Assembly (NCBI GenBank): GCA_027451745.1
Contig: DAIDIP010000001.1
Location: 62,001-126,000, forward strand
DNA from: Candidatus Melainabacteria bacterium
GTDB taxonomy: Bacteria; Cyanobacteriota; Vampirovibrionia; Obscuribacterales; Obscuribacteraceae
Length of the DNA stretch: 64,000 nt
Direction of reading: 5' to 3'
Under the pieces are notes generated by a model, which worked only from the letters and a program-made list of their open reading frames with translations, searched no databases and was not told the origin of the DNA. Positions within the stretch are counted from its first letter, which is position 1; the number at the start of each line of letters is the position of its first letter. Position numbers and translations under genes: made by a program. Of this stretch, positions 9,543-31,534 are shown one piece after another.

Positions 9543-9566
9543 TCTTTAGCCCTGTTTCCTTAAGTT

Positions 9567-10931: not shown

Positions 10932-10947
10932 ATACAATTACCTCTAT

Positions 10948-11673: not shown

Positions 11674-14146
11674 ACGCGATTCTCCTTTCTTTGAGCCACT
11701 CGTATGGCCATGCGTCGCCTTTGGTCGATTTCAGCTCGCGCAAGTGAGCTAAAGTAGCCTTGTCCGACACGGCAACGAAAGACAAGGCTATTGGCCCTAA
11801 TCCCAAATCAAACAGGCGTCTTCCCTCTGGTGAAACATAATAGTAGTGCCGTTTCTTGATAGCGGTTTCCAGGATATGAATCTGGGCCTCGTTCATGCCC
11901 ATTACCGTATAAAGATCCTTTGGTCCCAGATGATTCTCTGTACCGCCCTTATTTGCTTCCTCATTCGGCAGGAGGATTTTAGTTGGGCACGACTCGATAA
12001 GGACATCGAAGATACCTGACTTAACAGCGTCAGATAGACTTTGGGTGGCCAGAACGACTGCGCAATTCGCTTTACGCATAACTTTGAGCCATTCACGGAT
12101 CTTTTCTCGGAAAACTGCGTGACCTAGCATCACCCAAGCCTCGTCAAGGACTAACAATGCTGGTTGGCCCTTAAGCGACTTCTCAAAGCGTCGGAAAAGG
12201 TACAAAAGAACTGGAATGGCAGCTTTATCGCCTAAGGCTAATAGCTCTTCAATCTCCAGGACAGTAAATGTGTCATGTTGCAGCCCATCGTTATGACTAT
12301 CAAGCAGGCGTCCTAAGGAGCCAGCTACGGTGTAATAATTCAACGCATCTCGCAGAGCTTTATCTTGTACAGTTGTTGTAAATTCACTCAGTGAACGATA
12401 TTCTGACGTACTTGCATCACGTTGAAGAATCATTGCTCGGTGAATTTCTTGCCGCTGGCCCGGTGTAGGTCGTTGGCCCGACTGGAGTTCGTAGCAATTG
12501 GCAATCCACTCTTCAGCCCAGATCAGGTCTGAATCGCTATCCAATACAGACAGAGGCGCGAAGTTAGGTGTTACATCGGAAGCAATATCATAATGACGGC
12601 CGCCAGCAGCATTAGCCAAAGCCCATAATGAATTGCCTTTATCAAAGGCAAAGATGCTGGCGCCCGGATAGCGCCTAAATTGGGCAATAATTGTTGCCAA
12701 CAGAGTAGATTTACCAGCCCCGGTTGGACCGAAAATCAGCGTGTGGCCCACATCACCGACGTGCAGATTTAAACGAAATGGAGTCGAGCCAGAGGTGGCA
12801 CCGTACAACAGAGGGGGTGAATTAGCTGGATATAGAGGACATGGGCTCGATTCATGACCAGGCCAGACCGTCGACAATGGCAACATATCCGCTAGATTCT
12901 GAGTGTGAATAAGGCTGCGGCGCACGTTTGGGTATATGTGGCCAGGTAAGGTTCCTAACCACGCCTCTAGGGTGTTAATCGTCTCAATCCGACAAGTAAA
13001 TCCTTCCCGTTCTACTTCACGCACTACACGTCGCGCATTTTCAATTAGTTGCTTCTTCTCTGTCCCCATCAGCACAATTACACTTGTATAGTAGCCGAAC
13101 GCGACCAGTCCAGCATTTGAATCATTAATAGCTGCTTCCATCTCTTTGGCCATTAAGAGAGAATCTTCGTTGATCATTCCCCCATTTATCTTGAAGACTT
13201 GTGCGAGAAATCCACGTTGTTTTTGGCGCCACTTTCGACGTTTTTTCGTCAGCTCATTAACGCTTTCATGTTGATCAAGCATAATCATGCGATTCGACCA
13301 GCGATAGGCAATAGGCAGATGCTCCAATATTTCTAAAATATTGGGATATGACTGAGAAGGAAATCCTTCCAAAGACACGCAGCAAATGAAGTTTTCACCA
13401 ATCTTTGGCATATCACCCACCCAGAGTTCTTGCCCGCAAATATATTCATCTGCATACATCGCAATGGGAGGAATATTTATGGGATGAGACAATCCGGTGC
13501 ACGCGAAGTGGAGATAATTAACGAGCTCGTCTCGTAGATCCGATTTCTCGAATCGATTGAGATGTTCGTAGCTGCCCATCTTTTGTAGCGTCACAATCCC
13601 GTTTAGTGAGTCTGCTAACTCTTCTAATGTCTTATCAAAGTAGGCCAGATGTTGATTTGCCAGCGATTCAACGTTGGTAGTATTGACGTCATACATAAGA
13701 TTAGCCATTTTAGAGTGACGGCTTAGGGGCGGTCTGTAAGCCAATGTCAGGACATAGTAAGTCTCGAAATGATTCCCTTCTGCAAGAAACTTTTTTCGAT
13801 TTTCAGTTTCAATCAGTCGCGTAATGGGATCAGGAAAGTGAGATAAGTGCTCGGCGGGATATTCAGACGAAGGCACCCGAACGGCATCGTGTGAGATTGT
13901 CCAATGATTATCCAGCCGGGCAAGCGCGGTGTTCACACGTGCGGTATTGTAGTTTCGCTCTGACTCTGTTGAACTGGCTGTATCTTTGCAGCTATAGAAA
14001 AAGCCTCCAATGATCTGGCCATCTTTGCAAAGAACTCTGCCGTCACTGATCAGCGCAGCCCAGTTCAATAGGTCTGCAACTCCTTTGGATTTATTTCGAT
14101 AAACTTTCAAAGCGTGCATAGTGTTTTGTCCCGTTAATCGCGCCAA
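11648..14146 (-). CDS. trbE: TrbE/VirB4 conjugation ATPase
   Basis: The 832-residue protein has the CagE/TrbE/VirB4 N-terminal domain and a C-terminal ATPase with Walker A GPTGAGKST near residue 475 and Walker B ALLVLDEAWVML near residue 665, followed by VVLATQSLSDA. VirB4 energises pilus biogenesis and substrate transfer. It overlaps trbD by 13 bases and trbJ by 26 bases, showing a compact operon. The length is normal and no breaks are seen. Confidence 0.96.
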   Translation of the reverse strand: MARLTGQNTMHALKVYRNKSKGVADLLNWAALISDGRVLCKDGQIIGGFFYSCKDTASSTESERNYNTARVNTALARLDNHWTISHDAVRVPSSEYPAEHLSHFPDPITRLIETENRKKFLAEGNHFETYYVLTLAYRPPLSRHSKMANLMYDVNTTNVESLANQHLAYFDKTLEELADSLNGIVTLQKMGSYEHLNRFEKSDLRDELVNYLHFACTGLSHPINIPPIAMYADEYICGQELWVGDMPKIGENFICCVSLEGFPSQSYPNILEILEHLPIAYRWSNRMIMLDQHESVNELTKKRRKWRQKQRGFLAQVFKINGGMINEDSLLMAKEMEAAINDSNAGLVAFGYYTSVIVLMGTEKKQLIENARRVVREVEREGFTCRIETINTLEAWLGTLPGHIYPNVRRSLIHTQNLADMLPLSTVWPGHESSPCPLYPANSPPLLYGATSGSTPFRLNLHVGDVGHTLIFGPTGAGKSTLLATIIAQFRRYPGASIFAFDKGNSLWALANAAGGRHYDIASDVTPNFAPLSVLDSDSDLIWAEEWIANCYELQSGQRPTPGQRQEIHRAMILQRDASTSEYRSLSEFTTTVQDKALRDALNYYTVAGSLGRLLDSHNDGLQHDTFTVLEIEELLALGDKAAIPVLLYLFRRFEKSLKGQPALLVLDEAWVMLGHAVFREKIREWLKVMRKANCAVVLATQSLSDAVKSGIFDVLIESCPTKILLPNEEANKGGTENHLGPKDLYTVMGMNEAQIHILETAIKKRHYYYVSPEGRRLFDLGLGPIALSFVAVSDKATLAHLRELKSTKGDAWPYEWLKERRIAYESLLSSG

Positions 14147-14418
14147 GGTGTGGACCGCGGTGTATAGTAGCTTTCATACTTCAGATGGCGTAGATAGACA
14201 CTTACTAAATACGGGTCAATCTTTGCCATCATGCGAAAAATGCCTATGCCTAGGCACCAAATCGATAATCCAATAATGGTGGCAGGCCAGTTTTGCGAAC
14301 TGATAACCATTCCTGCACAAAGAATGCCAGTGGACATGACTAGTTCACGCTCTCCGCCAAGAAAAAGATTCGGACGGTGCAAGGCTCTATAGAAAGGTGT
14401 ATATCGCAGATCGCTCAT
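14134..14418 (-). CDS. trbD: TrbD/VirB3 membrane protein
   Basis: The 94-residue protein has the conserved start YTPFYRALHRPNLFLGGERE and two adjacent membrane helices, then an amphipathic tail (DPYLVSVYLRHLKY). This is the TrbD/VirB3 pattern: a small inner-membrane protein that works with VirB4. Gene order trbC-trbD-trbE agrees. Confidence 0.93.
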   Translation of the reverse strand: MSDLRYTPFYRALHRPNLFLGGERELVMSTGILCAGMVISSQNWPATIIGLSIWCLGIGIFRMMAKIDPYLVSVYLRHLKYESYYTPRSTPWRD

Positions 14419-14421
14419 GTC

Positions 14422-14766
14422 CTAAATTACCGCTCCATTTGCATTAAACAATGTAGTCATCAAGTTCGTTGCGAAGATGATTAATGAGATCACAAGGACT
14501 AAGAGAATTCCCTTCCGCAAAAACTCGTTGATCTCACCGCCCCACACCAAGGTACCTCCACAGCCTATTAAGGCCAGTAGTGAAATCGCATAGGCCACTG
14601 GACCTTGAATGCTGCGGGTTATTGTTTGTAATGGCGCTTCCCACGGAAGTCCCGCACCAGCATTTGCAGCTTGCACTTGTTCAGCCAAAATCAGGCAGAT
14701 TGCCAGAGCACTCAAGACCGATCGAGCGGCCATCGCATATTGATAATATTGATATTTGTCTCTCAT
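14422..14766 (-). CDS. trbC: TrbC/VirB2 pilin precursor
   Basis: The protein of about 114 residues has a long leader ending near AEQVQAANA and two membrane helices (VAYAISLLALIGCGGTLVWG and LLVLVISLIIFATNLM), the prepilin architecture of TrbC. It would be trimmed, and perhaps cyclised, by the TraF peptidase at 3571-4134. ATG at 14766 was chosen because AAGGAAAG precedes it; a TTG at 14784 overlapping trbB is possible. Confidence 0.92.
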   Translation of the reverse strand: MRDKYQYYQYAMAARSVLSALAICLILAEQVQAANAGAGLPWEAPLQTITRSIQGPVAYAISLLALIGCGGTLVWGGEINEFLRKGILLVLVISLIIFATNLMTTLFNANGAVI

Positions 14767-14780
14767 TATTTCTTTCCTTG

Positions 14781-15746
14781 TCAAATAAGTACGTAATCCC
14801 CGTCCTGAAACCCTCTAACCGTGAGTATTTCATCGATCTTTCTTCCTTCAGGTGTTTTTATAATCGAAACAATCACGTTAACTGCTTCTGCGATGAGTCT
14901 TTGCATGGGATTCGCAGAAGTCTCAGCGATTAATTGCTCAAGGCGAATTAAGCCGGCTCTAGCACCGTTGGCATGTACGGTTGCAGCACCACCAGGATGT
15001 CCGGTGTTCCAGGCTTTCAGTAGTGCCAGTGCTTCTGGTCCACGCACTTCGCCCACCAGAATGCGATCGGGCCTCAGTCGCATGGTTGCTTTGAGCAGGC
15101 GCAGCATGTCTACTGTATCGGTGGCATGAAGCAGATTTACATTTTTTGCTGAACACTGAATCTCGGCAGTGTCTTCAATAATAATGAGCCTGTGATAAGG
15201 AGTGAGCCGCTCTATAGCCTCAATTATGGCATTAGTAAAAGTGGTCTTTCCGGTTCCCGTTCCTCCTACGACTAATATATTTTGACGGTTTAATACAGCG
15301 GTCTCGATGAATTGCTTTTGGTGCTCAGTCATGATTCTGGCACTAACGTATTCAGCCAGAGTAAAAATTTTTGATGCCTTCAGGCGGATAGTAAAGATTG
15401 GAGCAGAAACAGCCGGTGGGATGAGCGCTTCGAAACGTTCGCCATTAAGTGGCAGCTCGCCTTCAAAAATAGGATTTTCCCGAGTCACTATTTCCTTGTG
15501 ATATGCGGCAACACTGCATATCACAGATTCTGCTTGAGAGGGTAGCATAGTCCCAATGCATTCCATCCCGGCACTAAGACGCTCAATCCACAAAGTTCCA
15601 TCTGCATTAAGCATTATTTCCACAACCCCAGGTTCTTCTAAGCACCTGCAAATTCTAATGCCTAGAACACGGCGAATTTTTTCCACTAGGCGGAATGCTG
15701 GTTCTAAGGAAGAGATATGTGCTGCAACATCGGAGGTTCTTGGCAT
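14781..15746 (-). CDS. trbB: TrbB/VirB11 secretion ATPase
   Basis: The protein of about 321 residues is a VirB11-family hexameric ATPase with Walker A GGTGTGKTTF near residue 160, an Asp box (LIIIEDTAEIQ) and Walker B-like RPDRILVGEVRGPEA, then GHPGGAATVHAN. It is the first gene of the trb operon. ATG at 15746 is preferred; a TTG three codons upstream (15755) is possible, and neither has a good ribosome site. Confidence 0.94.
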   Translation of the reverse strand: MPRTSDVAAHISSLEPAFRLVEKIRRVLGIRICRCLEEPGVVEIMLNADGTLWIERLSAGMECIGTMLPSQAESVICSVAAYHKEIVTRENPIFEGELPLNGERFEALIPPAVSAPIFTIRLKASKIFTLAEYVSARIMTEHQKQFIETAVLNRQNILVVGGTGTGKTTFTNAIIEAIERLTPYHRLIIIEDTAEIQCSAKNVNLLHATDTVDMLRLLKATMRLRPDRILVGEVRGPEALALLKAWNTGHPGGAATVHANGARAGLIRLEQLIAETSANPMQRLIAEAVNVIVSIIKTPEGRKIDEILTVRGFQDGDYVLI

Positions 15747-15805
15747 AAGGGTCAATTACTATTAATAAGGAAGCCGAAACAATGAGTCCAAACTTGGAAA
15801 CAAGA

Positions 15806-15907: not shown

Positions 15908-16084
15908 TATCCTTACTTATATTGATGGAGGCCCCATAACCGACACCACGCGTGAAAGTGGCAACCACTATTACACTGCTTCCGATGTCTCCTCAGTCGG
16001 TATCGGCGCTATGTGCCCGTTTTACATACAAAAGGTCTGGGTGTGCTCTGCATACATTCTGCTACCAGACTTATTTGTGGGCAT

Positions 16085-16158
16085 ATATCTGAATCTATCT
16101 CTGAATCTTCGGTTGAATATAGTACTGGAATCTCATTTTGCTGGTTGTTGCTTAAATG
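16085..16158 (-). repeat. 75-bp repeat, copy 2 (inverted)
   Basis: Read on the minus strand this copy is very close to copy 3: both have catttaa.caacaac, gattccagt and gattcagagat.gattcag in the same spacing. It stands about 100 bp before the excisionase-like gene at 16261 and points away from it, just as copy 3 does relative to the gene at 21390-21629. Confidence 0.65.
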
Positions 16159-16260
16159 CTAGGAAGCTTTCCGAGAAATCTTACGTTGTGATTTCAACTG
16201 ATTGAGCGAGTTTTTCAAATGTTCGATACGCGCATAAGCGCATCGTAAAAGGAAGATCTT

Positions 16261-16494
16261 ATGAATCCAGTCTCCGCAGAAAATAGCCGCGCCGCTGCTA
16301 AGGAATTTTCCAAGTTTGAATCTGACCTGTTGAGCCGAAAACAAGCTGCAGCCTATCTTGGTGTTTCTGATATAACGCTCGCCATATGGTGTAGTACGCG
16401 TAGATACAACCTGCAAGTTTATAAGATTGGCAGGCTAGCGAAGTACAAGAAGTCAGATTTAGATGCGTTCATAGCGTCCGGTCTGCAAGCATAG
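16261..16494 (+). CDS. Excisionase-like helix-turn-helix protein (HTH_17), copy 1
   Basis: The 77-residue protein has the helix-turn-helix excisionase pattern: SRKQAAAYLGVSDITLAIW near residues 26-44, then YKIGRLAKYKKSDLDAFIAS. Small proteins of this type steer tyrosine recombinases towards excision or act as repressors. AAAGGAAG lies 5 bases before the ATG. The integrase at 17122 lies downstream on the same strand. A near-identical protein is encoded in the opposite direction at 21390-21629, so the pair brackets the integrase and defence genes. Confidence 0.85.
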   Translation: MNPVSAENSRAAAKEFSKFESDLLSRKQAAAYLGVSDITLAIWCSTRRYNLQVYKIGRLAKYKKSDLDAFIASGLQA

Positions 16495-16517
16495 CAAACG
16501 GTCAAGCAGCTGAGTTA

Positions 16518-16547
16518 AGGAGAGTGTCCCAGTGGATGCCCTCTCTT
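16518..16547 (+). terminator. Possible terminator after the excisionase-like gene
   Basis: The arms aggagag and ctctctt can form a 7-bp stem (one G-U pair) with a 16-base loop, followed by a few T residues. The large loop makes this weak. Confidence 0.3.
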
Positions 16548-16723
16548 TTGCTTTCTTCCGCAAACAAATACAAAGTGGCTACTATGTGAATAACTGTGAT
16601 AAAGCTTTTGCGCAACAATCGGCCCGTGGGTTCAGTTGATTCTTTTCTGACGGTAGCGCATTCGATACGACTCTATCTGCCTTGAATAGAAGATGTATAG
16701 AAGATGACTGATTTTACCTACCT

Positions 16724-16757
16724 AAAAAAACGGAGCGATTCTCATTGAGAACCGCTC
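16724..16757 (-). terminator. Intrinsic terminator of the tRNA-Val fragment
   Basis: On the minus strand GAGCGGTTCTC and GAGAATCGCTC pair over 11 bp (one G-U) around AAT and are followed by CCG and seven T residues. It lies 12 bases beyond the 3' end of the tRNA-like sequence at 16770, in the right orientation to be that tRNA gene's terminator. Confidence 0.8.
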
Positions 16758-16769
16758 ACTGTCAATATT

Positions 16770-16816
16770 TGGGCGGTATAGGATTCGAACCTATAACCCC
16801 CTCGGTGTAAACGATG
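16770..16816 (-). other. Attachment site: 3' half of a tRNA-Val(TAC) gene
   Basis: The minus strand reads as anticodon loop TTTACAC (anticodon TAC), stem CGAGG, a 5-base variable loop, T-arm ATAGG-TTCGAAT-CCTAT, acceptor strand ACCGCCC and discriminator A. No 5' half (a GGGCGGT strand and D-arm) is found on the 5' side, and the 5' anticodon stem already has a mismatch, so homology stops near the anticodon. A truncated tRNA 3' end beside a P4-type integrase is the classic att scar or carried attP of an integrating element. Confidence 0.85.
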
Positions 16817-16950
16817 TGCTGCAACGATTTTACTGGGTTTTCCGGGATTTTCGCTAATTTTCTCAACTTATCGCTATATTGCTGAAGAAGCGCACTGGTT
16901 ATGGCACACGTGTATCTCAGTCTTATTCTTGTTTTCTCTATATATTTTTC

Positions 16951-17084
16951 GGGAGTAGCATCCTAGTAGCATTTAAATTGGCCAGCCATCCTTAGCATGT
17001 TATCCTATCAAAGCCTGACCGGTTGTGACCTTTAGGTTTTGTATTTAACCACCTAATCGCTTGCCAAGCGCTTAGGGAGTAGCA
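16951..17084 (+). promoter_or_regulatory. Repeats in the integrase leader
   Basis: The 10-mer gggagtagca occurs at 16951-16960 and 17075-17084, with a partial copy (tagtagca) at 16964. Between them lies an 11-bp inverted repeat with one mismatch, cctaatcgctt (17052-17062) and aagcgcttagg (17066-17076). Direct repeats between att and int often are recombinase arm sites, and a dyad just before int may be its operator. Both roles are inferred. Confidence 0.45.
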
Positions 17085-17121
17085 GGTAATAGGGGCTAAA
17101 TAGGGGTGAAAGATCAGCGAA

Positions 17122-18426
17122 ATGCCAGCAAAATCAATTCTGTGTCTGAATTTTACTAAAACGGAGCTTGCAAAGCTGCCGATTCCGAATGCGGGTTACG
17201 TAGTCCACCATGACACGACCGTTGAAGGACTTGTTCTTTTGGTCTATGCCACCGCAGCTAAGCGTTTTTACGTGTATAAGAAAGTAGATGGTAAACCTAC
17301 CCGCATTAGAATTGGTAAGTTTCCAGATATATCGGTCGAGCTGGCTCGCAAAGAAGCCCAGCAAATTTTGGGTGCGATTGCTCAAGGTGGGAGACCAATA
17401 TCGAAGAGCAGGAGAAAAGAACCCACGATACAGCTGGACGATCTTTTTAAGCGCTATATAACTGAATATGCTCAACACCATTGCACCACCTGGGAAGAAA
17501 CCGAAAAAAGTTTTCGGCGGTGTTTTCGCTCCTGGCTGTTGCGCGAAGTAAGCACAATCACACGTGCTGATATACAACAGCACATGAACGTGCTTGGGGA
17601 AGAGCGTGGCCAACATACGGCGAATCGCGCCTTCGATGATCTGCGCGCCGTGATCTCATGGGGCATTAAATATGATTACGTGACGGGCATTAATCCTTGT
17701 GTTGGCGTCATCAAATTCAAGACCCTTTCACGGGAGCGATTCATTCATCCTCAAGAATTTAGTAACTTTCTGACAAAGTTGCGCGAAAGTAAGAACATCG
17801 ATATTCGAGACTATACTTATTTGAGCCTGTTCACCGGTGCACGCCAAGCGAACGTTCTTGCAATGCGCTGGGATGAGATTGACTTTGATCTGTGTTTGTG
17901 GCGCATCCCAAAGACAAAGAACTCCAAATCTCACACAATACCACTTACGGTGGCAGCTATGGCGGTCTTGAACGAACGCAAAGAAAGGATTACTGAACCA
18001 TGGGTTTTTCCAAGCAAAACATCTGCAGTGGGTCATTTGGTTGAGCCGAAGATCGGCTGGCGCCAGCTACTAAAGGACGCACAGATAGAAGATTTGCGCA
18101 TGCACGACTTGCGGCGGACACTTGGTAGTTACATGGCAATGGGCAATCAGAGCCTACACATAATTGGCAAAGCGCTTGGGCACCAATCTCACACTTCGAC
18201 GCAAGTTTACGCCCGGCTTGCTCACGATCCAGTACGGCAAGCAATGGAAAAAGCCCAAGCAGATATGCTGCTGGCAGCAGGACTTGTGTCGCCTGCTGAT
18301 TTTATTAGCGCAATCGCTGGGCATGAACCTGCAGCTCGCCAACGCGCTCACGAGAAAATGTTCAAGCAAGAACAGCCTTCACCAGATACTAATGTCATAC
18401 TCAAAGAGGCAAGTGTTAAATACTAG
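17122..18426 (+). CDS. P4-type tyrosine integrase
   Basis: The 434-residue protein has the DUF4102 arm-binding domain (LVLLVYATAAKRFYVYKKVD, IRIGKFPDISVELARKEA), a SAM-like core-binding domain and a catalytic domain with Arg in TGARQANVLAMRW, His-Leu-Arg in MHDLRRTLGSYMA, His in ALGHQSHTSTQ and nucleophile Tyr in VYARL. Such integrases insert islands and conjugative elements into tRNA 3' ends, agreeing with the tRNA-Val fragment 300 bp upstream. All catalytic residues are present, so it is probably active. Confidence 0.95.
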   Translation: MPAKSILCLNFTKTELAKLPIPNAGYVVHHDTTVEGLVLLVYATAAKRFYVYKKVDGKPTRIRIGKFPDISVELARKEAQQILGAIAQGGRPISKSRRKEPTIQLDDLFKRYITEYAQHHCTTWEETEKSFRRCFRSWLLREVSTITRADIQQHMNVLGEERGQHTANRAFDDLRAVISWGIKYDYVTGINPCVGVIKFKTLSRERFIHPQEFSNFLTKLRESKNIDIRDYTYLSLFTGARQANVLAMRWDEIDFDLCLWRIPKTKNSKSHTIPLTVAAMAVLNERKERITEPWVFPSKTSAVGHLVEPKIGWRQLLKDAQIEDLRMHDLRRTLGSYMAMGNQSLHIIGKALGHQSHTSTQVYARLAHDPVRQAMEKAQADMLLAAGLVSPADFISAIAGHEPAARQRAHEKMFKQEQPSPDTNVILKEASVKY

Positions 18427-18553
18427 CGTAACCATAGAGTATTTCATGAAATTGCCAAAAAGCCATCTGGAAGTTAGGTCCCCGGCTTTTACGATCTCCC
18501 CACTTGTATGCAAATAGCCGTGCAATTTGTGGGTTTTCGCATATAATTGGGGA

Positions 18554-19372
18554 ATGAAAGAACTTGAACACTATTTAGATCAACAACTCATCCGTGGGCG
18601 TTTTCATTTCACCAGGAAAGAAGCCATAAAAACTCTTGCCCTAAACGCACGAGCGTTTGGTGACGCCGCAACCAGACTAATAAAGAAGAAGCAACTTGTC
18701 AGCCCTTGGCGTGGTTTTTATCTAATTCTTCGCCCGGAAGATCGTATTGCTGGAGCACCAGATCCGGTGCGCTGGATTGATCCACTCATGAAGTATCTCA
18801 AACTGGATTATCGCATTTCGCTGCTCCGCGCTGCTGCTTTCCATGGCTCTTCGCACCAAGCGGCTATGGTATTTCAGGTCATTGTTTCAAAACAATTGCG
18901 GGGATTTGATCTCGGTCGCCACAGGATACAGTTCATCTATCAGAGATCAGCGGCCTTTAGTTCAACTAATCAAGACGAGTGGCTTCAGAAACTTAAAAGT
19001 GATACAGGCTTTGCCAGAGTAGCAGGAGTCGAGCTTACACTTCTTGATTCAGCGCGGTACTTTCATAAAGTTGGTGGTATAAATAGCGTGGCTCAGATGG
19101 CCAATGATTTAGGTGGAAAGGCTGATGCGCGGAAACTGGCTAAGGCTGCCGCCTGCTATGAAAACTCTTCCGTGCGCCGCCTTGGTTATTTGCTTCAATA
19201 CTTCGGACATGAGCGGCAGGCCAAGGCGGTTTTGCCGTTAGTCAAAAAAGCCAAGTCCATGAAGCCGCTTGATCCGTCGGTTAGACTGCTGAATGAGGAC
19301 CTATCAAGTTTGCCAGAGGCAAATGCTACCTGGATGCTAACACTCAATGCGCTTGTGGAGATAGACGAATGA
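18554..19372 (+). CDS. AbiEi-family type IV antitoxin
   Basis: The protein of about 272 residues has an N-terminal winged helix (RGRFHFTRKEAIKTLALN) and the AbiEi body (SPWRGFYLILRPEDRIAG, LLRAAAFHGSSHQAAMVFQV, LTLLDSARYFHKVGGI). AbiEi proteins repress their own operon by binding inverted repeats and counter the AbiEii nucleotidyltransferase toxin. The ATG at 18554 is preferred; TATAAT at 18542-18547 leaves almost no leader. The toxin gene that should follow is cut to 35 codons (19369-19476), so this is an orphan antitoxin. Confidence 0.9.
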   Translation: MKELEHYLDQQLIRGRFHFTRKEAIKTLALNARAFGDAATRLIKKKQLVSPWRGFYLILRPEDRIAGAPDPVRWIDPLMKYLKLDYRISLLRAAAFHGSSHQAAMVFQVIVSKQLRGFDLGRHRIQFIYQRSAAFSSTNQDEWLQKLKSDTGFARVAGVELTLLDSARYFHKVGGINSVAQMANDLGGKADARKLAKAAACYENSSVRRLGYLLQYFGHERQAKAVLPLVKKAKSMKPLDPSVRLLNEDLSSLPEANATWMLTLNALVEIDE

Positions 19373-19476
19373 TACCAGCAGCTCATATACAAGAGTGGAG
19401 CCTGAAGGTAGCATGGCCAGCTGCAAGGCAGGTCGAACAGGATCGGATCATTTGCCGGACACTAGATGATCTCTAA
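19369..19476 (+). pseudogene. AbiEii toxin gene remnant, first 35 codons
   Basis: The frame starts with an ATGA overlap on the AbiEi stop and reads MIPAAHIQEWSLKVAWP, then RQVEQDRIICRTLDDL and a stop. This matches the conserved start of AbiEii toxins (MIP..I.EW...APW....QVEQDL.I.RAL). The nucleotidyltransferase domain is missing. The break coincides with the 3' end of the convergent gene at 19473, so insertion of that gene or a deletion removed the toxin. Confidence 0.8.
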
Positions 19477-20966
19477 CGCGTGATCACTTCGTACCGAGTC
19501 GCTCGTCCCTGTCCGATCCGCTGCACCAGCTTCAACTCAATAAATTTCTTAAGTTGGCGTTGGGTTTTTCTCTCATCGAATCCAGTAGCCTCTGCATATT
19601 CCGGCGCGGTTGTGATTAGTCTCGAAGTCAAATATCCCCAGCCGGTTTTTTCATCTTCATTCAGGGAGCCCAACGCTGATGGTTCAAGGGTTGTCGCGAC
19701 GCTTTCAGGGTTACTGAACAGATGAAGCACCAAATATGGTTCATGCAAACTGTACTTCGGTATGGGTAAACCAAAGGTTTGAGGAATTGACTTGAGCGTT
19801 TTCATTCCCAGTCCACGTTCTTCAGTTAGACCCATTTGTGAAAACACGTAGTGCAGTTGGGGGTTGCGACTGAGCGTTGGCGCAGTGAATGCATTTAACT
19901 GTGCAAGCGTAATTGGTGAAATTGGTGCGCCAGGGCTCATGACTTTGATATCGTCCGGCGAAATAATTAGTTGGCACTTTGCTCCCGTGATGTCGTAGTC
20001 TCTGTGAACGAGTGCATTGATGATGGGTTCGCGCAGTAGCTCGAAAGGAATTGCCGCTCTCTCAGTCCGTTTCATCCTCGAGCGACTAAGTATATTCGGC
20101 AGTCGGGTCTCCAGCCAATGTTCAACACCGTCAGGAATGAGAACCATAGGCCCGTCGAAGTCTTGTTTTTCAATTTCGCCGTTTGGGTAGTGAATGGTCG
20201 CGAGTAATCCTGCTTGGGGTAGCAGCACCCTCGGTTTTTTTGCAAACAACAAAATGCCATAGCCTGTTGGTACCGGTTTGCCATTCTGCTCTTTTACAAG
20301 TCCTTGCTGCAATAGGCGGTGATTAAACGGATGAGAATCTATAGGGTCCGTCAATTTTGCATCAGCTGCAAATCGCTGCAGTGCCTCGGTTGACAAATCT
20401 TCGAGTGATGTTGTGGGTTCGGACTTCTCGAATGACGTGAGGATAACCGGTTCTTCCCTTTCTTGAGCAGCCGCTTCCGCTCTCTGTAGGGCTTGGGCGA
20501 TAAATTTGGCGTTGATATCTCTGATTACTTTTTGCAGGTCGCGATCAAACATATGGACGGTTACGCCTTTGCTCTGGAGATAGGATATCCCTTTGCGATC
20601 TACCGTAGGGTCTGGGTCCTCGATTCCTACCCAAACTTCTTTGATCCTTGCTAGTATGATCCGCTCTGCACAAGGCAGCTTTCCTTCTCCGCGTGCACCT
20701 GGGGCGCAGGGCTCGAGCGTAGCAAAAAGCACAGAGCCATCGAGTTTGGCCTCTCTCTTTTTGCGTTCCAATAGCGTATACTCGGCATGATCACCCTCAC
20801 GCAATTCTCCTCGGTAGGCTGTTTCAATTGTGCCATCTGGCATATAGAGGACTGCTCCGACAGCTGGACTTGATTTTCCATCCTCCCGATCCTCATGGAT
20901 TGAATGTTTCATCTCCTCTATGGCTAGTTCCATAAGGTTTCGTGAGTTGTAGCTGGTTCTAGGCAT
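19473..20966 (-). CDS. Fused RibD-like deaminase / HATPase / winged-helix protein
   Basis: Residues 1-150 are a zinc-dependent deaminase of the RibD/dCMP type: His60-Ala-Glu62, TLEPC ending at Cys87, second zinc Cys99, then GIEDPDPTVDRKG. Residues about 195-300 resemble the middle of COG2865 (RecG-like, Schlafen-AlbA) regulators. Residues about 310-360 form an HATPase_c_4 fold (ELLREPIINALVHRDYD). The last 60 residues are a winged helix (TGFDERKTQRQLKKFIELK). The usual AlbA_2 domain seems replaced by the deaminase. A nucleotide-based defence or sensor role is inferred from the fusion and the AbiE neighbour. No ribosome site is evident; the start is the first ATG after the operator array. Confidence 0.85.
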   Translation of the reverse strand: MPRTSYNSRNLMELAIEEMKHSIHEDREDGKSSPAVGAVLYMPDGTIETAYRGELREGDHAEYTLLERKKREAKLDGSVLFATLEPCAPGARGEGKLPCAERIILARIKEVWVGIEDPDPTVDRKGISYLQSKGVTVHMFDRDLQKVIRDINAKFIAQALQRAEAAAQEREEPVILTSFEKSEPTTSLEDLSTEALQRFAADAKLTDPIDSHPFNHRLLQQGLVKEQNGKPVPTGYGILLFAKKPRVLLPQAGLLATIHYPNGEIEKQDFDGPMVLIPDGVEHWLETRLPNILSRSRMKRTERAAIPFELLREPIINALVHRDYDITGAKCQLIISPDDIKVMSPGAPISPITLAQLNAFTAPTLSRNPQLHYVFSQMGLTEERGLGMKTLKSIPQTFGLPIPKYSLHEPYLVLHLFSNPESVATTLEPSALGSLNEDEKTGWGYLTSRLITTAPEYAEATGFDERKTQRQLKKFIELKLVQRIGQGRATRYEVITR

Positions 20967-20983
20967 AAGTCTGTTCTATGAGT

Positions 20984-21112
20984 TGTCGGGATTTAATAAT
21001 TATGTCACAGTTTTGGAAGAATCCCGACACAATGTCGGGAAAAGTGTCGGGATTTAATCTTTGGTCCTAACTTTTTAAAGAATCCCGACACAATGTCGGG
21101 AAAAGTGTCGGG
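20984..21112 (-). promoter_or_regulatory. Operator array of CCCGACA / TGTCGGG half-sites
   Basis: Seven half-sites lie just upstream of the deaminase-HATPase gene: tgtcggg at 20984, 21033, 21045, 21094 and 21106, and cccgaca at 21023 and 21084. Two blocks, repeated exactly 61 bp apart, each hold an inverted pair (atcccgacac ... gtgtcgggat) with a third half-site inside. A minus-strand -10-like CATAAT lies between the block and the gene. The likely ligand is the winged-helix domain of the adjacent protein. The rest of the gap to 21389 shows nothing further. Confidence 0.75.
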
Positions 21113-21389
21113 ATTAATGGGCTTGTTGGAAAAAAATTTAAGAAGTTCGCCAAATACATTCCTTTCTGGAACTAACCACTGATTCTTATGTAACTGGAAT
21201 CCCGTTTTTGACGGTATCTTTCATCAGGCACAATGGCTGAAGCGTCTACGGAACGAGCGCTTTAGGTTTGGGCTTTATGTAATGGTCATGTAACTGGTTC
21301 ATTAAAACTATTAATCTTTGGATCGTACTAATCAAAAGTAAAATTGCAGGCCGTCCTGCAAAATTCGGGAGGCATGCTTAACCAGCGGA

Positions 21390-21629
21390 CTATAGTGCTT
21401 GCAGCCTGGATGCAATGAATGCATCTAAATCAGACTTTTTGTACTTTGCTAATCTGCCAATTTTATAAACTCGCACACTATACCTGCCGGTAGACTTCCA
21501 GATGGCGAGTGTCATTTCGGAGACGCCCAGATAAACCGCAGCTTCTTTGCGAGTCATCAGTTCAGATTCAAACCGTTGCAGTAGGTTGAATTCTGCTCTG
21601 CCATTTTGAATTGGATTAGTTGTGTTCAT
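21390..21629 (-). CDS. Excisionase-like helix-turn-helix protein (HTH_17), copy 2
   Basis: The 79-residue protein matches the one at 16261-16494 over most of its length, notably TRKEAAVYLGVSEMTLAIW and the identical YKIGRLAKYKKSDLDAFIAS. It is encoded on the opposite strand. ATG at 21629 aligns with the start of copy 1 and has AAAGGG nearby; an upstream start at 21665 is less likely. DNA identity between the copies is high at the 3' end, so the duplication looks recent. Confidence 0.85.
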   Translation of the reverse strand: MNTTNPIQNGRAEFNLLQRFESELMTRKEAAVYLGVSEMTLAIWKSTGRYSVRVYKIGRLAKYKKSDLDAFIASRLQAL

Positions 21630-21662
21630 TGTCAACATCCCTTTAGAACAATTGGTTGATAT

Positions 21663-21734
21663 CATTTAACCAACAACTTACAAAAGGGGATTCCAGTGAT
21701 ACATTCAGCCGCCGATTCAGAGATGGATTCAGAA
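21663..21734 (+). repeat. 75-bp repeat, copy 3
   Basis: This copy matches the reverse complement of 16085-16158 and, less well, 15836-15907. It points away from the excisionase-like gene at 21390-21629 in the same relative arrangement as copy 2 and its gene. It includes the start of the 91-codon frame at 21696. Confidence 0.65.
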
Positions 21735-21971
21735 TGTCGCCAGTCCACATTTGTATTTCGTCTGGCGAATGTCGCTATAAAACGGATTTTTCTTTTAGGT
21801 CTTTGTAATGATCTGAGAAGGAAAGCCACCATCAGCGGTGAAGGTCTGATCTTACTGCAATCGGATAATTTCATCTATGCGCATGTCCGTGTAAACATCC
21901 AGACCAAAGAGCCCGCGGCCGCGACTATTTTTAAGTATCTTGAAAATAGTTTCTATCTCTTTGACAGTTAG
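21696..21971 (+). CDS. Hypothetical protein, 91 aa, GTG start
   Basis: The frame starts at GTG, 6 bases after AAGGGG, and reads MIHSAADSEMDSECRQ followed by a basic hydrophobic segment (VAIKRIFLLGLCNDLRRK). It is divergent from the excisionase-like gene. The first 15 codons are shared, in frame, with the repeat at 16085-16158 (STEDSEIDSD) and partly with 15836-15907, but those copies lack a start codon. No family is recognised. It may be a small regulator paired with the excisionase, or chance. Confidence 0.4.
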   Translation: MIHSAADSEMDSECRQSTFVFRLANVAIKRIFLLGLCNDLRRKATISGEGLILLQSDNFIYAHVRVNIQTKEPAAATIFKYLENSFYLFDS

Positions 21972-22005
21972 AATTTTTCCTTGGCTGCCCATGATTATAA
22001 GATAG

Positions 22006-22041
22006 GTAGATGAAAAATTACTACTAATTCATTTCATCTAC
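22006..22041 (+). terminator. Stem-loop, possible terminator
   Basis: The arms gtagatgaaaaatta and taattcatttcatctac pair with a 2-base bulge around a short loop and are followed by ATTTTCT. It stands 35 bp after the 91-codon frame ending at 21971, on the correct strand for that frame. Confidence 0.4.
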
Positions 22042-22170
22042 ATTTTCTAGGCAAGCGTTAAAGGAACGAAAAAGCATCACGGGCTGGGAATTATAGTTCT
22101 AGCAGCGAGGAAGATAAAACAACCATTTTGTCTACCAGCGAACTTTATCTTTAACTTATCTGTAGCTCAG

Positions 22171-22833
22171 TTAAATTGGACTGGCGCTGCAACAAGGTTT
22201 GCCTTTAATTGCCTCCAAACCTTCTTTGATTATTACTGGAGTAAACAATAGTGCAGCAGTAGGATCTGCCCATTTCCAATGGAATAATGCATTCAATGCA
22301 AGACCAAGAAGTGTCGTGCCTGCCAACCAAGCGCATGTAACACTCTGAAATGCTTCTGCTTTCATTGCTTTACTATTAAGATCTTGAGCAGATTTATATT
22401 TTGCTCTGGCAAGTAGAGGCATAATAATCAATGCCGCAACTGTCAGAAATATACCTGGCCAGCTTGCTTTGGTTTGTTCCCCTAAACAAACAAGTTTGCG
22501 TGTAGCATCGAACCCTATATATGCAGCCAAAATTATAAGCAAAAATCCAACAGCTTGAGTGGCTTTTCGTTCCAGTTGTTCGTTCGCTTCAGTATTTTGT
22601 TCTTCAGACCAGAACCGCCAGCCAACAATTGCTGCGCTTGCCGTCTCAATAGCTGAATCTAGCCCGAAGCCGACCAAAGCTACCGAGCCAGAAAGATAAC
22701 CAAAAAATAGGGCGGCGACACCCTCGAATAAGTTCCAGCCCACTGTAAGTAACGCAAGCCGTTTAGCTCGTTGAATGCTTATACCACGGTTACGTTGATC
22801 GTCTTGATCGCAAGAGCGCTCGTGACAATTCAT
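22171..22833 (-). CDS. Cation transporter, CDF-like
   Basis: The 220-residue membrane protein has about five membrane spans and CDF-type metal-site segments: GFGLDSAIETASA near residue 55 in the second span and SKAMKAEAFQSVTCAWLA near residue 155. CDF proteins move Zn, Co or Cd out of the cytoplasm by proton exchange. The C-terminus ends GKPCCSASPI, a possible extra metal ligand. AGAAGGAGAAG precedes the start. It follows the CzcCBA genes on the same strand, as czcD-like genes often do. Confidence 0.85.
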   Translation of the reverse strand: MNCHERSCDQDDQRNRGISIQRAKRLALLTVGWNLFEGVAALFFGYLSGSVALVGFGLDSAIETASAAIVGWRFWSEEQNTEANEQLERKATQAVGFLLIILAAYIGFDATRKLVCLGEQTKASWPGIFLTVAALIIMPLLARAKYKSAQDLNSKAMKAEAFQSVTCAWLAGTTLLGLALNALFHWKWADPTAALLFTPVIIKEGLEAIKGKPCCSASPI

Positions 22834-22968
22834 AGTGATTCTTCTCCTTCTGGTAGCATCAAAGATAATTTTGCATCGGACGACATCTCATCTTTTTATA
22901 ACGGTAGCTTGAACTGCGCACTTTTGCTAAAGATATTGAGAGGATTTCATGCACTCCTTAATGCATTG

Positions 22969-24300
22969 TTATAACGGGTGCCCGATGGACTGTTCTAGGT
23001 CGGTAAGAGTTTGCTGATAGGTGCGTACTGCTTCAAAATATGCAACTTTTGTCTGAACATTTGCTTGCTGAGCAGCTAGCGTTGATGTGATGTCGCTTTG
23101 TCCGACCTCATAGGCACGCCGAGCCATGTGGGCTACAGTATTTGAAGATGGCAAAATCTTATCTTGAAAGTAACCAATACGTTCACGAGCTGCGACCATC
23201 TGCTGATAGGAAGCAATGACTTCTTCTGTCATCACGTTTTTAGTTGACTCAAGCTCCCTGGTTAATTGAATGCTCTGAGCATGTAAGCGTGCTCTTTCAC
23301 CCTGTTGCAAGTTAAACATGGGAACTTCCTGTGTGACTGCAACGTAGTAGCCCCGCGTGGCGTGTGTTCCCGGTCCAGTAGGGGGGTTTCCTGAATACGA
23401 GTAGCCTACATTTAAGTGCGGATTTGGAATAATGTTACCCTTCGCAATTCGCATATTGGCATTGTTGACAGCAATGCTTTGCTGAATGATTTTCACATCC
23501 AGTCTTGATTGCAATGCTTCCTTGATAACAGAGTCCAGAATTGGTAATTGCTCGTCGAAGTTTGGCAGCAGTTCATGTGTTTCTGCTTTCAGTCGAACTG
23601 TAGGTAATCTTGGTACTTCAATTGTGTCGTGATAGTCGCGGCCCATAAGCACGCTCAAGCGTTCTTTTGCTTGTAAGAGTCTGCGGTTGCTTTGCTTAAC
23701 GTCTGCTTCCGCTTGAAACATTGCCAGCTCTGCTCGCTTCACGTCGAGCGCAGCTACGTCGTCGGCGGCAAATCTTTTCTGAGCAGTGGACAAAACTTCT
23801 CCTGCTAGAGAACGTAATTCATCAAAAGCTTTGGTTGTCTCGGTTGCCATCACTACATCTAGATAAGCGCGCCTCACAGTGGCTCGAAGTAGCCATAAGT
23901 TGCGTTGGACTTCCAAGTCAGTCTGTTTGATTTGGGCTTTTGCTGATAACAGTCGAAATGCTAGTTTCCATGGCAGTTCGATAGGAATGGAGCCACCGAC
24001 CTGGTGTGTTAACTCAGCAGTATCATTTAGGACGAATACTGAGGGATTGGGCAATACGAGCGCTTGTGCATATAGTGCTTTGGTAATTCCGAGTTGTGTT
24101 CTTATTGTTGCTGCGCGCGGACTGTTTACCAGTGATGCGTCAAAGACCGCGGACAACGATATTGGTGGCAACGTCGAACCTGTCTGACTAGGCGGGTTCA
24201 AAAAAACTGAATTCGCAGACGTGGACATGACTGACGCAGAAGTCTGTGCCCATACCGTTAAGGCGACCATAATATTAACTGCTGTCTTTCGCAATTTCAT
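22969..24300 (-). CDS. czcC: CzcC-type outer-membrane efflux protein
   Basis: The 443-residue exported protein is a TolC/OMF family member: signal peptide to about residue 25, paired long helices (LDVVMATETTKAFDELRSLA and RYEVGQSDITS-type end) and LDVKRAELAMFQAEADVKQ in the middle. It forms the outer-membrane duct for the pump at 24330-27500. GTGGAG lies 8 bases before the start. It is third in the order czcB-czcA-czcC. Confidence 0.9.
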   Translation of the reverse strand: MKLRKTAVNIMVALTVWAQTSASVMSTSANSVFLNPPSQTGSTLPPISLSAVFDASLVNSPRAATIRTQLGITKALYAQALVLPNPSVFVLNDTAELTHQVGGSIPIELPWKLAFRLLSAKAQIKQTDLEVQRNLWLLRATVRRAYLDVVMATETTKAFDELRSLAGEVLSTAQKRFAADDVAALDVKRAELAMFQAEADVKQSNRRLLQAKERLSVLMGRDYHDTIEVPRLPTVRLKAETHELLPNFDEQLPILDSVIKEALQSRLDVKIIQQSIAVNNANMRIAKGNIIPNPHLNVGYSYSGNPPTGPGTHATRGYYVAVTQEVPMFNLQQGERARLHAQSIQLTRELESTKNVMTEEVIASYQQMVAARERIGYFQDKILPSSNTVAHMARRAYEVGQSDITSTLAAQQANVQTKVAYFEAVRTYQQTLTDLEQSIGHPL

Positions 24301-24329
24301 TAACCAACTCCACCAACAAATGTCTTTGA

Positions 24330-27300
24330 TTACACCCCTGCTATGTGCTTATCCACGTTCTCAGTGACACTCTTTTGTTTCTGCTTGCGGCGATTAAAAT
24401 TCGACGCTGTCCGTTCAAAAAAGATATACAGGTTCGGTAATAGTAAAAGAGTCAAAATGCTCGAAGTTAACAGGCCGCCAATTACGACGGTAGCTAACGG
24501 TCGCTGCACTTCTGCACCAGATGATACTGAAAATGCCATTGGGAAAAAACCGAGACTGGCTACTAGTGCTGTCATAAGTACCGGCCGCAACCTTGTCAAC
24601 GCTCCTTTTATGACTGCTGTCTTTGTATCCATTCGTTCCTTTAGTGTGTTAATGTAGCTAACCATCACCACTCCATTAAGCACGGCCACGCCGGATAAAG
24701 CGATAAAACCTACGCCGGCGGAAATGGAAAATGGCATTCCTCTTATTGCTAAGGCAAAAATTCCTCCTACTATCGCAAATGGAATTCCAGAAAAAATCAG
24801 CAAAGCCTGGATTACAGAGCCGAAAGTCATAAACAACAAGATAAAAATCAACAGCAGAGCAATTGGAACTACGATTGATAAAGTTGCTGTGGCGCGCTGC
24901 AAGTTTTCGAACTGTCCGCCCCATGTGATGTAATAGCCTTCCGGCAACTTGATCTCTAGCTCAGTACGCTTTTGTGCCTCATTTACGAAGCTGCCTATAT
25001 CTCTTCCTCGCACGTTCAACTCGACAACTACACGGCGCCGACGATCTTCTCGGGAAATCTGCGCGGGTCCCTCTTGCACTTTAATTTTTGCAAGACTGGT
25101 AAGCGGTATCATTGCGCCGCCAGACTTTGGTGCAAGAGGTGGAGCTGCGACTAGGAGTCTGCGTATGGACTCCACGTCCGTGCCGCTTGCTTCATTTAAT
25201 CTTACGACAATATCGAACCGTTGTTCTCCTTCATAAACGATGCCAGCCGGCAGTCCAGCCATGATCGCTCTCACCAGATTGTTCACATCAGCAACATTTA
25301 TGCCGTACCGAGCAATTGCATCTCTGTCTGGCTCTATGATTAGCTGTGATAATCCGGCCGTCGGCTCTACTTTTACATCAGCTGCACCAGAAACACCACT
25401 GATTACCCTAGCCACCTTGTCTGCTTGCTCTCGTAGTTTGTCTAGATCATCACCAAAGATCTTTACTGCAATATCTGATTTAACGCCGGCAATCAGCTCC
25501 GCTGTCCTTTGTTCAACTGGCTGCGAAAAACTAAAGATTGCCTGTGGAACTTTTTCTCCCAAGACCTGCGCCATTTTTTTGATCAGTTCCTCTTTCGATG
25601 CTGCTGTTTTCCACTCGCTTATAGGCTTCAGTCCAACGTAAATGTCTCCAGTATCAATTCCCATGGGATCGGTAGCCACCTCTGCTCTTCCAATCTTCGA
25701 TACAACCCTTGTAACTTCCGGAAATGAGCGAATGACGGATTCTGTTAACGATGCCGTTGCAACGGCTTGCGTCAGCGATACGCCGGGTAATTGCTGGATC
25801 TGGATCGAAATTGATCCTTCATCGAGCCGAGGGATAAACTCCGCACCGAGGATTGGCAATGTAATAAGGCTCATGATCATTAAACAGAGCGCAACAGCAA
25901 AAGTTTGCATCTTGTATGAGCTAACTACCTGCAGGGACTTTTGATAAGCCGGCTTGATATGAGCGACAAGAAAGCTTTCTTTTTCTTTAATTGGGCCGGG
26001 ATACACTAACGTAAGCAATGCAGGAACATAGGTGAGGGAAAGAAGGAGCGAACCTGCTAAAGCAAACACAACCGTCATAGCCATCGGTTTGAACATCTTT
26101 CCTTCAATGCCTGTCAAACTGAGGATCGGTAGATACACTATGGCAATGATTGCTACTGCAAACACCACTGGGCGTCCGACTTCAAGACAAGCTTCCAAGA
26201 CTGTTGTCTCGCTAGATTCACTGACTTTTTCTTTGTAATCGTCTGACAGCCTCCTGACGGTGTTTTCGACCATTACAACGGCCCCATCTACGATAAGCCC
26301 AAAGTCAATTGCTCCCAGGCTCATTAAATTACCTGAGACCTTGAAAAGACTCATGCACGCAGCCGCAAACAACATGGATAGTGGAATCACACTGGCCACC
26401 ACAAGAGCTCCGCGCCAATTACCTAGCACCACAAGCAACACCACTATTACAAGAGCTGCCCCTTCGACAAGGTTCCATTCGACAGTGTGGATAGTGCGAT
26501 TAACTAATTCTGAGCGGTCATAAAAAGGAATGATCTCGAAGTTCTGCGGAAGAGTTTTTTGGATTTGTCGAATCTTGTCTTTAACACGCTCAACAACCGT
26601 TCTTGAATTTTCACCTTTAAGCATGAGCACAATGCCAGCGACTGTCTCTCCTTTGCCGTCGGCTGTAACAGCGCCCTGCCGAACCTCCGAGCCCGTCACT
26701 ACTTCACCGATATCCCGCACGAAAACGGGCACGCCTTCTTTCCCTGATTTGACTACAATATTTGCGATCTGCCCGGACGTTTGAGCCAAACCGATTCCCC
26801 GAAGTAAATATTGCTCACCTTGGTGCTCGATGTAAGCGCCCCCAACATTCTCGTTATTAGCCATTATTGATGTGGCCACATCGCGTAAGGTGATTCCGTA
26901 AGAGATAAGCTTGGCGGGATCGACACGGACCTGGTACTGTTTTTTTTGTCCACCATAACTGTTCACTTCAGCAATACCCGGCACCCCCATGAGTTGACGC
27001 CTGACTATCCAGTCTTGAACTGTGCGTGCGTTTTGCAACTCTTTGGGGTCGGATTTATTCTCTCTTAATTCATATTGATAGATTTCGCCTAGCCCTGTGG
27101 ATATTGGTCCCATTTGCGGCGAACCAAGTGTTTCCGGGATTTGCTGGCGTACCTGAGATAGCCGCTCTAATACAAGTTGACGAGCGAAATAAATGTCGGT
27201 TTGCTCGTTAAACACGATTGTCACAGCGGAAATTCCAAATTTAGAAACTGAGCGAACTTGGCTTACAAAAGGCAATCCGCTCATAGACACTTCAATTGGA

Positions 27301-27500
27301 AAAGTAATCTGCCGCTCGACTTCTAGGGGTGCCAATGAAGTTGCAGATGTTAATACCTGTACCTGGACATTTGTAATGTCGGGTACGGCATCGATGGACA
27401 AGTTTTGAAGACTTACTATTCCAGTTCCAATGAGAAGAATCACCCCCATCAAAATAAGAAAGCGTTGATTAACAGAGAATCTAATGAGCGCGTTGATCAT
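24330..27500 (-). CDS. czcA: CzcA-type heavy-metal RND pump
   Basis: The 1056-residue protein has the full RND topology: first span near residues 10-30, a large periplasmic domain, six spans, a second periplasmic domain and a closing set of spans. The fourth-span motif DFGLIVDGAVVMVEN carries the D-x6-D-x6-E pattern of divalent-cation pumps (CzcA, CnrA), unlike the copper/silver CusA type. Substrates are therefore probably Zn, Co, Cd or Ni. Its start overlaps the stop of the fusion protein gene (TAATG). Confidence 0.94.
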   Translation of the reverse strand: MINALIRFSVNQRFLILMGVILLIGTGIVSLQNLSIDAVPDITNVQVQVLTSATSLAPLEVERQITFPIEVSMSGLPFVSQVRSVSKFGISAVTIVFNEQTDIYFARQLVLERLSQVRQQIPETLGSPQMGPISTGLGEIYQYELRENKSDPKELQNARTVQDWIVRRQLMGVPGIAEVNSYGGQKKQYQVRVDPAKLISYGITLRDVATSIMANNENVGGAYIEHQGEQYLLRGIGLAQTSGQIANIVVKSGKEGVPVFVRDIGEVVTGSEVRQGAVTADGKGETVAGIVLMLKGENSRTVVERVKDKIRQIQKTLPQNFEIIPFYDRSELVNRTIHTVEWNLVEGAALVIVVLLVVLGNWRGALVVASVIPLSMLFAAACMSLFKVSGNLMSLGAIDFGLIVDGAVVMVENTVRRLSDDYKEKVSESSETTVLEACLEVGRPVVFAVAIIAIVYLPILSLTGIEGKMFKPMAMTVVFALAGSLLLSLTYVPALLTLVYPGPIKEKESFLVAHIKPAYQKSLQVVSSYKMQTFAVALCLMIMSLITLPILGAEFIPRLDEGSISIQIQQLPGVSLTQAVATASLTESVIRSFPEVTRVVSKIGRAEVATDPMGIDTGDIYVGLKPISEWKTAASKEELIKKMAQVLGEKVPQAIFSFSQPVEQRTAELIAGVKSDIAVKIFGDDLDKLREQADKVARVISGVSGAADVKVEPTAGLSQLIIEPDRDAIARYGINVADVNNLVRAIMAGLPAGIVYEGEQRFDIVVRLNEASGTDVESIRRLLVAAPPLAPKSGGAMIPLTSLAKIKVQEGPAQISREDRRRRVVVELNVRGRDIGSFVNEAQKRTELEIKLPEGYYITWGGQFENLQRATATLSIVVPIALLLIFILLFMTFGSVIQALLIFSGIPFAIVGGIFALAIRGMPFSISAGVGFIALSGVAVLNGVVMVSYINTLKERMDTKTAVIKGALTRLRPVLMTALVASLGFFPMAFSVSSGAEVQRPLATVVIGGLLTSSILTLLLLPNLYIFFERTASNFNRRKQKQKSVTENVDKHIAGV

Positions 27501-28870: not shown

Positions 28871-28953
28871 GGCGCTAATACTCCTTATTGGAAGCAGCAA
28901 TTAAAGGACGCGATGGTCATGACCATCGCGTTATAAGACAGTTACAGCCGGTT

Positions 28954-29334: not shown

Positions 29335-29493
29335 ATTGTCCAGATGCTACCGACTTTATACTGCTTGGAGATAAGTTGTCCCCTTACAATATCTTTGAAA
29401 CCCCAACACAGAAGAGATGATAGATTGTCAGCAGTTGCCGATCAGATCCGAGTGTTCTAATTTTATCACGCCATCATAAATTTGATTAAATAG

Positions 29494-29980: not shown

Positions 29981-30076
29981 CACGTGGTCCTCGATTCTGG
30001 ATTAAAACACGGTACGCCCGATCTATAATATTCCGTAAAATATCAAATATACGAACCATTTCCACTAAAAGAGAGA

Positions 30077-30509: not shown

Positions 30510-30574
30510 AAATTTAATCAGTTTTTGCAAACGAGCTAGCTTGTAAGTTATTCCACTTTTTACCTACTTGTTCA

Positions 30575-31520: not shown

Positions 31521-31534
31521 TTGTTTTTCTCCTT

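Follow-up and report, generated by a model that had tools for sequence, protein, structure and literature searches.

The 64,000-nucleotide stretch of Candidatus Melainabacteria DNA analysed here (hereafter, the window) carries, on its reverse strand, one intact open reading frame with an ATG start and no internal stop codon, which encodes a 497-residue protein combining a deaminase, an HATPase-like domain and a winged helix (Table 1). The AbiE antitoxin and the integrase named as neighbours in the earlier note are indeed present. No AbiEii toxin frame follows the AbiEi gene in the ORF list or among the PADLOC matches, and the AbiE toxin-antitoxin pair is incomplete. The gene lies outside any restriction-modification (R-M) operon, standing alone beside the integrase, and an assignment to defence based on the integrase and the orphan AbiEi of this locus would be weak. 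Further afield, the window encodes a type IV secretion/conjugation set with VirB4-, VirB11-, TraG-like and other proteins (1155-15755) and CzcA/CusA-type heavy-metal efflux genes (22000-38000), and the neighbourhood looks like an integrative conjugative element with metal resistance. No att repeats bounding an integrative element were found around 16000-23000, the sole strong repeat being the array upstream of the fusion gene.

Table 1. Features of the fusion protein, its array and the adjacent genes, in window coordinates
Feature	Position	Strand	Basis
Deaminase-HATPase-winged-helix protein, 497 aa	19473..20966	-	ORF list, 54 orthologous loci
RibD-like deaminase domain, residues 1-155, zinc residues H60/E62/C87/C99	20502..20966	-	Pfam, PDB, invariance, fold
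HATPase_c_4 domain, residues 328-410	19737..19985	-	Pfam, invariant columns, match to 3lmm
N-box-like E313xxxN317AxxH321R, beginning just before HATPase_c_4; ERGLG near residues 383-387		-	Invariant columns
Predicted C-terminal winged helix, residues 437-494	19485..19658	-	AlphaFold model
Predicted recognition helix, residues 465-477; half-site co-varies with Q469 and R470	19536..19574	-	Model and co-variation
Array unit, ATCCCGACA-N3-TTCCCGACA-N3-TGTCGGGAT on the gene strand	21021..21053	-	Repeat analysis
Second array unit, another 61 bp upstream	21082..21114	-	Repeat analysis
Lone additional half-site, 18 bp ahead of the start codon; ATCCCGACA on the gene strand	20984..20992	-	Repeat analysis
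AbiEi antitoxin-like gene without AbiEii partner; not shown to belong to the system	18527..19372	+	PADLOC, E 1.5e-87
Tyrosine integrase, neighbour	17122..18426	+	Pfam
Excisionase/MAD1-like helix-turn-helix gene, neighbour	21390..21665	-	Profile matches

A RibD-like deaminase on a COG2865 chassis

The earlier note described the protein as a RibD-like deaminase with complete zinc motifs, mounted in place of AlbA_2 on a COG2865-type chassis, and proposed a domain search and structure prediction. Both analyses recover the two domains. In the Pfam search, dCMP_cyt_deam_1 (residues 9-114, E 2e-10) and HATPase_c_4 (E 1.5e-11) score above their gathering cut-offs, and AlbA_2 gives no match at E ≤ 1. 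The AlphaFold model (mean pLDDT 86, pTM 0.60) begins with a deaminase fold, continues with a middle domain and then an HATPase-like domain, and ends in a winged helix modelled as three helices (437-449, 454-461 and 465-477) followed by two strands. In Foldseek, the N-terminal part matches RibD (rmsd of about 2.5 Å across some 150 columns), whereas the COG2865 protein 3lmm matches the C-terminal part. On this COG2865 HATPase/winged-helix chassis, the place of the Schlafen AlbA_2 domain is taken by an intact RibD-like zinc deaminase. The same chassis is matched by the SIR2- and pAgo-labelled PADLOC models PDLC02402, PDLC02418 and PDLC02394. We rejected these pAgo/SIR2-PNTD matches as evidence of an Argonaute system, because they are matches to the chassis that AlbA_2 chassis proteins give as well; they suggest either that the chassis is also fused to, or mixed with, SIR2/pAgo proteins or that the PADLOC models are contaminated.

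The four zinc residues given in the earlier note are correct and invariant among 28 aligned sequences, which excludes a chance pattern. Other invariant positions in this alignment are HAE, PC..C, the N-box-like E313xxxNAxxHRxY, SPG, RNP and ERG.G, within which E382 is invariant and R384 varies in some sequences, as well as K96, a basic residue between the two cysteines. The GHKL N-box (E313, N317) and the Gly-rich G2 (G385, G387) are likewise present and invariant. By contrast, the G1 box DxGxG is absent, with SPG in its place in 28 of 28 sequences, and ATP binding by the HATPase domain is therefore uncertain.

The nearest solved sequences to the deaminase domain are RibD enzymes (PDB). The domain shares the deaminase fold and the HAE ... 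PC..C zinc motif with the bifunctional deaminase-reductase RibD/RibG, from which the fusion protein differs in having the HATPase chassis instead of a reductase domain, a longer loop between the two cysteines, an unconserved pocket Asn and no riboflavin context. The position aligned with that Asn, which we take to be N23 of Bacillus subtilis RibG, varies across the fusion family. Given this alteration of the RibD-type pocket, together with the invariant K96, the substrate is probably not a riboflavin intermediate; a phosphorylated nucleotide would be our guess. That the gene encodes a riboflavin-pathway enzyme mistaken for a defence protein has next to no probability, even with RibD as the closest deaminase family, and we rejected this identity: the reductase domain is missing, the NCBIfam RibD model TIGR00326 scores 54 bits against a curated cut-off of 156, the host genome has RibD pieces of its own elsewhere, and riboflavin families are lacking among the 25 commonest neighbour families of the orthologs, around which no riboflavin cluster, named in the earlier note as a refuting outcome, was seen. 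The host RibD consists of two adjacent reading frames for the deaminase and reductase parts (G000 contig C45 1087-2309; L088, L090).

Deaminases are established anti-phage effectors in AvcD/DcdV (dCTP/dCMP deaminases) and RADAR. The role proposed here for the fusion protein shares this idea, but its fusion partners and genomic slot are different, and it matches no AvcD/DcdV or RADAR model in PADLOC at E ≤ 1.

Relatives of the fusion gene in restriction-modification and other operons

The same fusion, at 35-60% identity, is found at at least 54 other loci in bacteria and archaea. One scan of 84,980 genomes yielded 38 relatives in this identity range, mostly full length, from Proteobacteria, Bacteroidota, Planctomycetota, Acidobacteria, Cyanobacteria, Spirochaetota, candidate phyla and archaea. 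The gene is rare: within the phylum to which the window belongs, it occurs in 1 of 339 genomes, and four other sampled phyla gave 2/395, 9/387, 8/391 and 3/383, counts that include the centre genomes and are based on only a few candidates scored per genome. This sporadic spread across phyla indicates horizontal transfer. The earlier note had suggested a search for the fusion in other mobile elements. It does recur elsewhere, but plasmid matches cover only the chassis and no full-length copy was detected in phage records or among IMG/VR matches, so that a phage-borne gene was rejected; E. coli yielded no match. No description of the deaminase fusion or of its array was found in the open-access literature, outside which a prior description is possible.

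Whereas the window's own neighbours are weak evidence for the defence role put forward in the earlier note, 30 of the 54 orthologous loci lie in or beside R-M or related defence operons (20/38 in the first set and 10/16 in the second, the latter drawn from random genomes regardless of context). With none of the orthologs seen in riboflavin clusters, a defence role is much better supported than from the window alone. In the first set, these loci comprise type I R-M (L004, L005, L007, L008, L016, L017, L020, L022, L024, L025 and L026, with L008 counted from a subunit fragment only), type III-like helicase with N6/N4 methyltransferase (L012, L018, L021, L029), a BREX-related DUF1156/DUF499 set (L019), PLD-helicase with Eco57I-like methylase (L032), SIR2-HerA or HerA (L014, L013) and a set in which HD-CE/HATPase is joined by an SMC-like ATPase (L033). 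Those of the second set are L114, L116, L117, L118, L121, L122, L123, L124, L126 and L127. Several R-M genes were assigned through similarity to Pfam-verified seeds of the same data set rather than one by one. The other 24 of the 54 loci, several of which are contig ends, show no visible R-M neighbour.

The usual gene order is hsdM-hsdS-X-hsdR, where X is the fusion gene and the stop of hsdS overlaps the start of X; in L017 and L026, the hsdS-X gap is zero, and hsdR follows 119-249 bp downstream. Genes of known guards or effectors accompany X in some operons, among them SIR2 (L014, L117, L124) and an AAA_13 protein (L004). In the type I operon of L025, patatin-like and DncV-like cyclase genes of the CBASS type (3163-5674) are located between hsdS and X. 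The ortholog of L114 (7366-9042) has an additional N-terminal HTH_3 domain; after it, the type I operon encodes a SLFN_AlbA_2 protein that lacks an HATPase domain (9293-10471). In L122, the gene directly upstream of the deaminase gene (2658-5822, reverse strand, for this upstream gene) encodes a protein that resembles type I R subunits and carries SLFN_AlbA_2 at its C-terminus.

Relatives of the chassis on plasmids have an N-terminal SLFN_AlbA_2 domain and fill equivalent slots, as in hsdM-hsdS-TrlF-X-hsdR (L077), brxC-X-pglX (L078) and pglX-TrlF-X-pglZ (L079), where X is the AlbA_2 chassis protein. A close association of BREX loci with proteins composed of a Schlafen RNase, a minimal histidine kinase and a winged helix has been reported for at least 1017 taxa (PMC12839542). 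The fusion protein shares the middle domain, HATPase_c_4, the winged helix and the operon slots with these bacterial Schlafen-chassis (COG2865) proteins and differs in its N-terminal effector, where a RibD-like deaminase stands in for the RNase-type AlbA_2 domain. Since AlbA_2 chassis proteins fill equivalent slots, the best reading of the deaminase is that of an exchanged effector on a chassis already known.

The second point of comparison is the anticodon nucleases PrrC and RloC, which are embedded in type I R-M operons (PMC3710099). Like these, the fusion gene is an accessory, toxin-like gene within hsd operons that is coupled to an NTPase-type domain, and in L127 it directly adjoins a full-length AAA_13 (RloC/PrrC-like) gene positioned before it (E 7e-191). 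The predicted product differs in being a deaminase rather than a HEPN nuclease, with a GHKL-like instead of an ABC ATPase domain and an added, putatively sequence-specific DNA-binding domain. The residence in an R-M operon that is typical of PrrC-like guard effectors is seen at the 30 defence-associated loci but not for the window copy.

The DNA array and the recognition helix

Adjacent to the fusion gene is an operator-like DNA array, of which the earlier note made no mention. Each unit consists of 9-bp half-sites arranged as half-site, 3 bp, half-site, 3 bp, inverted half-site, with a direct period of 12; an array contains 1-3 units, adjacent ones being mostly 61-63 bp apart. In the relatives, the array is located 3' of the gene, within about 10-200 bp after the stop codon, a position that would be unusual for simple autorepression. 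The window is the sole exception, its array (20984-21114) being upstream of the gene, at 18-148 bp from the start codon. Within R-M operons, hsdR or a methyltransferase gene comes directly after the array, which is also present at loci where no operon gene comes after. An exact-core test identified the unit in 27 of 39 loci versus 8 of 1098 control windows, and with up to three mismatches allowed, it was identified in 33 of 39 versus 37 of 1499. The window palindrome does not occur elsewhere in the 3.0-Mb host genome. The rigid three-half-site array is clear for the deaminase family only. Direct repeats with a period of 11-12 were seen by eye downstream of the Schlafen-chassis gene in L076, L077 and L083 and upstream in L075 and L082, and these are possibly an equivalent of the array; a generic repeat test beside mixed Schlafen-chassis relatives gave 15/39 versus 155/590 for controls, which is not clearly above background.

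The half-site varies between loci, is common to the proximal units of one locus and tracks two residues of the recognition helix. Arg at residue 470 goes with A at base 7 (..GACA) and Asn with C (..GCCA), whereas Lys or Arg at residue 469 goes with G at base 5. In the combined table, the base-7 code holds at 30/1 versus 1/14 (Fisher 9e-10) and the base-5 code at 12/0 versus 6/28 (5e-7), some of its half-sites having been completed by hand from the printed sequences. The exceptions are L012 and L021, L093 and L095 with their deviant half-sites, and Bacteroidota at base 5. Among later loci that were found independently, some of them close relatives of one another, the base-7 rule holds in 10/10 Arg and 5/5 Asn loci with an alignable half-site.

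A tree of the protein body, built on residues 1-430 only, requires 9 changes of helix class and 9 of site class, but no more than 10 of the joint class, compared to a shuffled mean of 20 and minimum of 15 for the joint class, and we conclude from this low joint count that helix and site switches coincide. Because the half-site co-switches with the recognition helix repeatedly along the tree, it is nearly certain that the encoded winged helix binds the adjacent array, and there is a strong case that the two have been exchanged as one specificity module. For instance, L004, L007, L008 and L016 have bodies that are 83-88% identical, and in the pairs L004/L007, L004/L008, L007/L016 and L008/L016 the C-terminal part is 37-41% identical and the half-sites differ. 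Furthermore, in the mixed arrays of L004, L008, L014 and L016, the gene-proximal units fit the present helix and the distal units have the sequence found with other helices, a pattern that serial replacement of modules would leave. We rejected the alternative that the array forms an RNA hairpin, given that the first direct half-site would be unpaired in the hairpin and that the co-variation with a DNA-reading helix favours DNA.

Possible functions of the fusion protein

Because its relatives reside in restriction operons and its array changes with the DNA-reading helix, the fusion is a probable armed accessory of restriction systems, and we hold with moderate confidence that the protein is a deaminase-armed accessory effector of R-M and related defence operons. 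Array binding, together with the HATPase domain, would keep it autoregulated or inactive at its own locus; when a phage overwhelms or inhibits the R-M system, the deaminase would be released or activated and would attack a nucleotide or nucleic-acid substrate, providing second-line abortive immunity in the manner of PrrC and RloC. We propose this guard logic on the precedent of PrrC-PrrI (PMC3710099), and we infer with it enzyme activity, a substrate, a trigger, an anti-phage function, an abortive outcome and HATPase-driven control. The window copy would be a stand-alone version beside an integrase, with the array on the promoter side.

Alternatively, the protein might be a transcription regulator rather than an effector, with the deaminase as a ligand sensor or a site of housekeeping chemistry and the array as an operator that times, for example, hsdR or the gene itself. 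Among the features of the family, DNA binding at cognate sites has the strongest support, and the location of the array, directly before hsdR or a methyltransferase gene in R-M operons and at the gene's own promoter side in the window, would suit an operator. Nevertheless, we consider this reading somewhat unlikely, given that all zinc and catalytic residues are invariant, more than a mere sensor would require, that the same chassis bears AlbA_2 domains, which in BREX loci have been described as RNases (PMC12839542), and that the array also occurs at loci without a following operon gene. It is quite unlikely that the protein is a nucleic-acid editing effector, the deaminase acting on tRNA, mRNA or DNA bases under the guidance or restraint of the winged helix. 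Although the deaminase profile has a further match in TadA tRNA adenosine deaminases (E 4e-12), Foldseek gives a weak match to APOBEC3 and the AlbA_2 counterpart bears an RNA-binding annotation, sequence and fold both clearly place RibD closest, and sites in the host genome are confined to the gene's own locus. The sporadic distribution across phyla, the integrases adjoining the window copy and L001, the diversity of half-sites, as in incompatibility groups, and the ParA/ParB genes next to some chassis relatives on plasmids would all fit an addiction or maintenance module of mobile elements, in which the array is partition- or operator-like and the protein a self-limiting toxin. However, more than half of the copies are found within R-M or related operons and not beside mobility genes, making this reading very unlikely.

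As an accessory effector of R-M and related operons, the deaminase would join the effectors mounted on Schlafen-type chassis in R-M and BREX operons. A more specific mechanism, which we regard as unlikely, is that of a DNA-tethered sentinel: the proteins would assemble in a silent state on their own array, and cutting, occlusion or degradation of the array, or a signal from the neighbouring R-M complex, would free the deaminase. Winged helix and array would be exchanged together, as one cassette, so that cross-talk or interference by phages is avoided. If true, this would be a new way to wire an immune effector to a DNA site. The two-residue, two-base code predicts the exact DNA target of each protein, making DNA binding and the role of the array testable together, and the apparent exchange of a DNA-reading domain along with its adjacent sites on otherwise closely similar bodies would be an unusual way for an immune protein to evolve.
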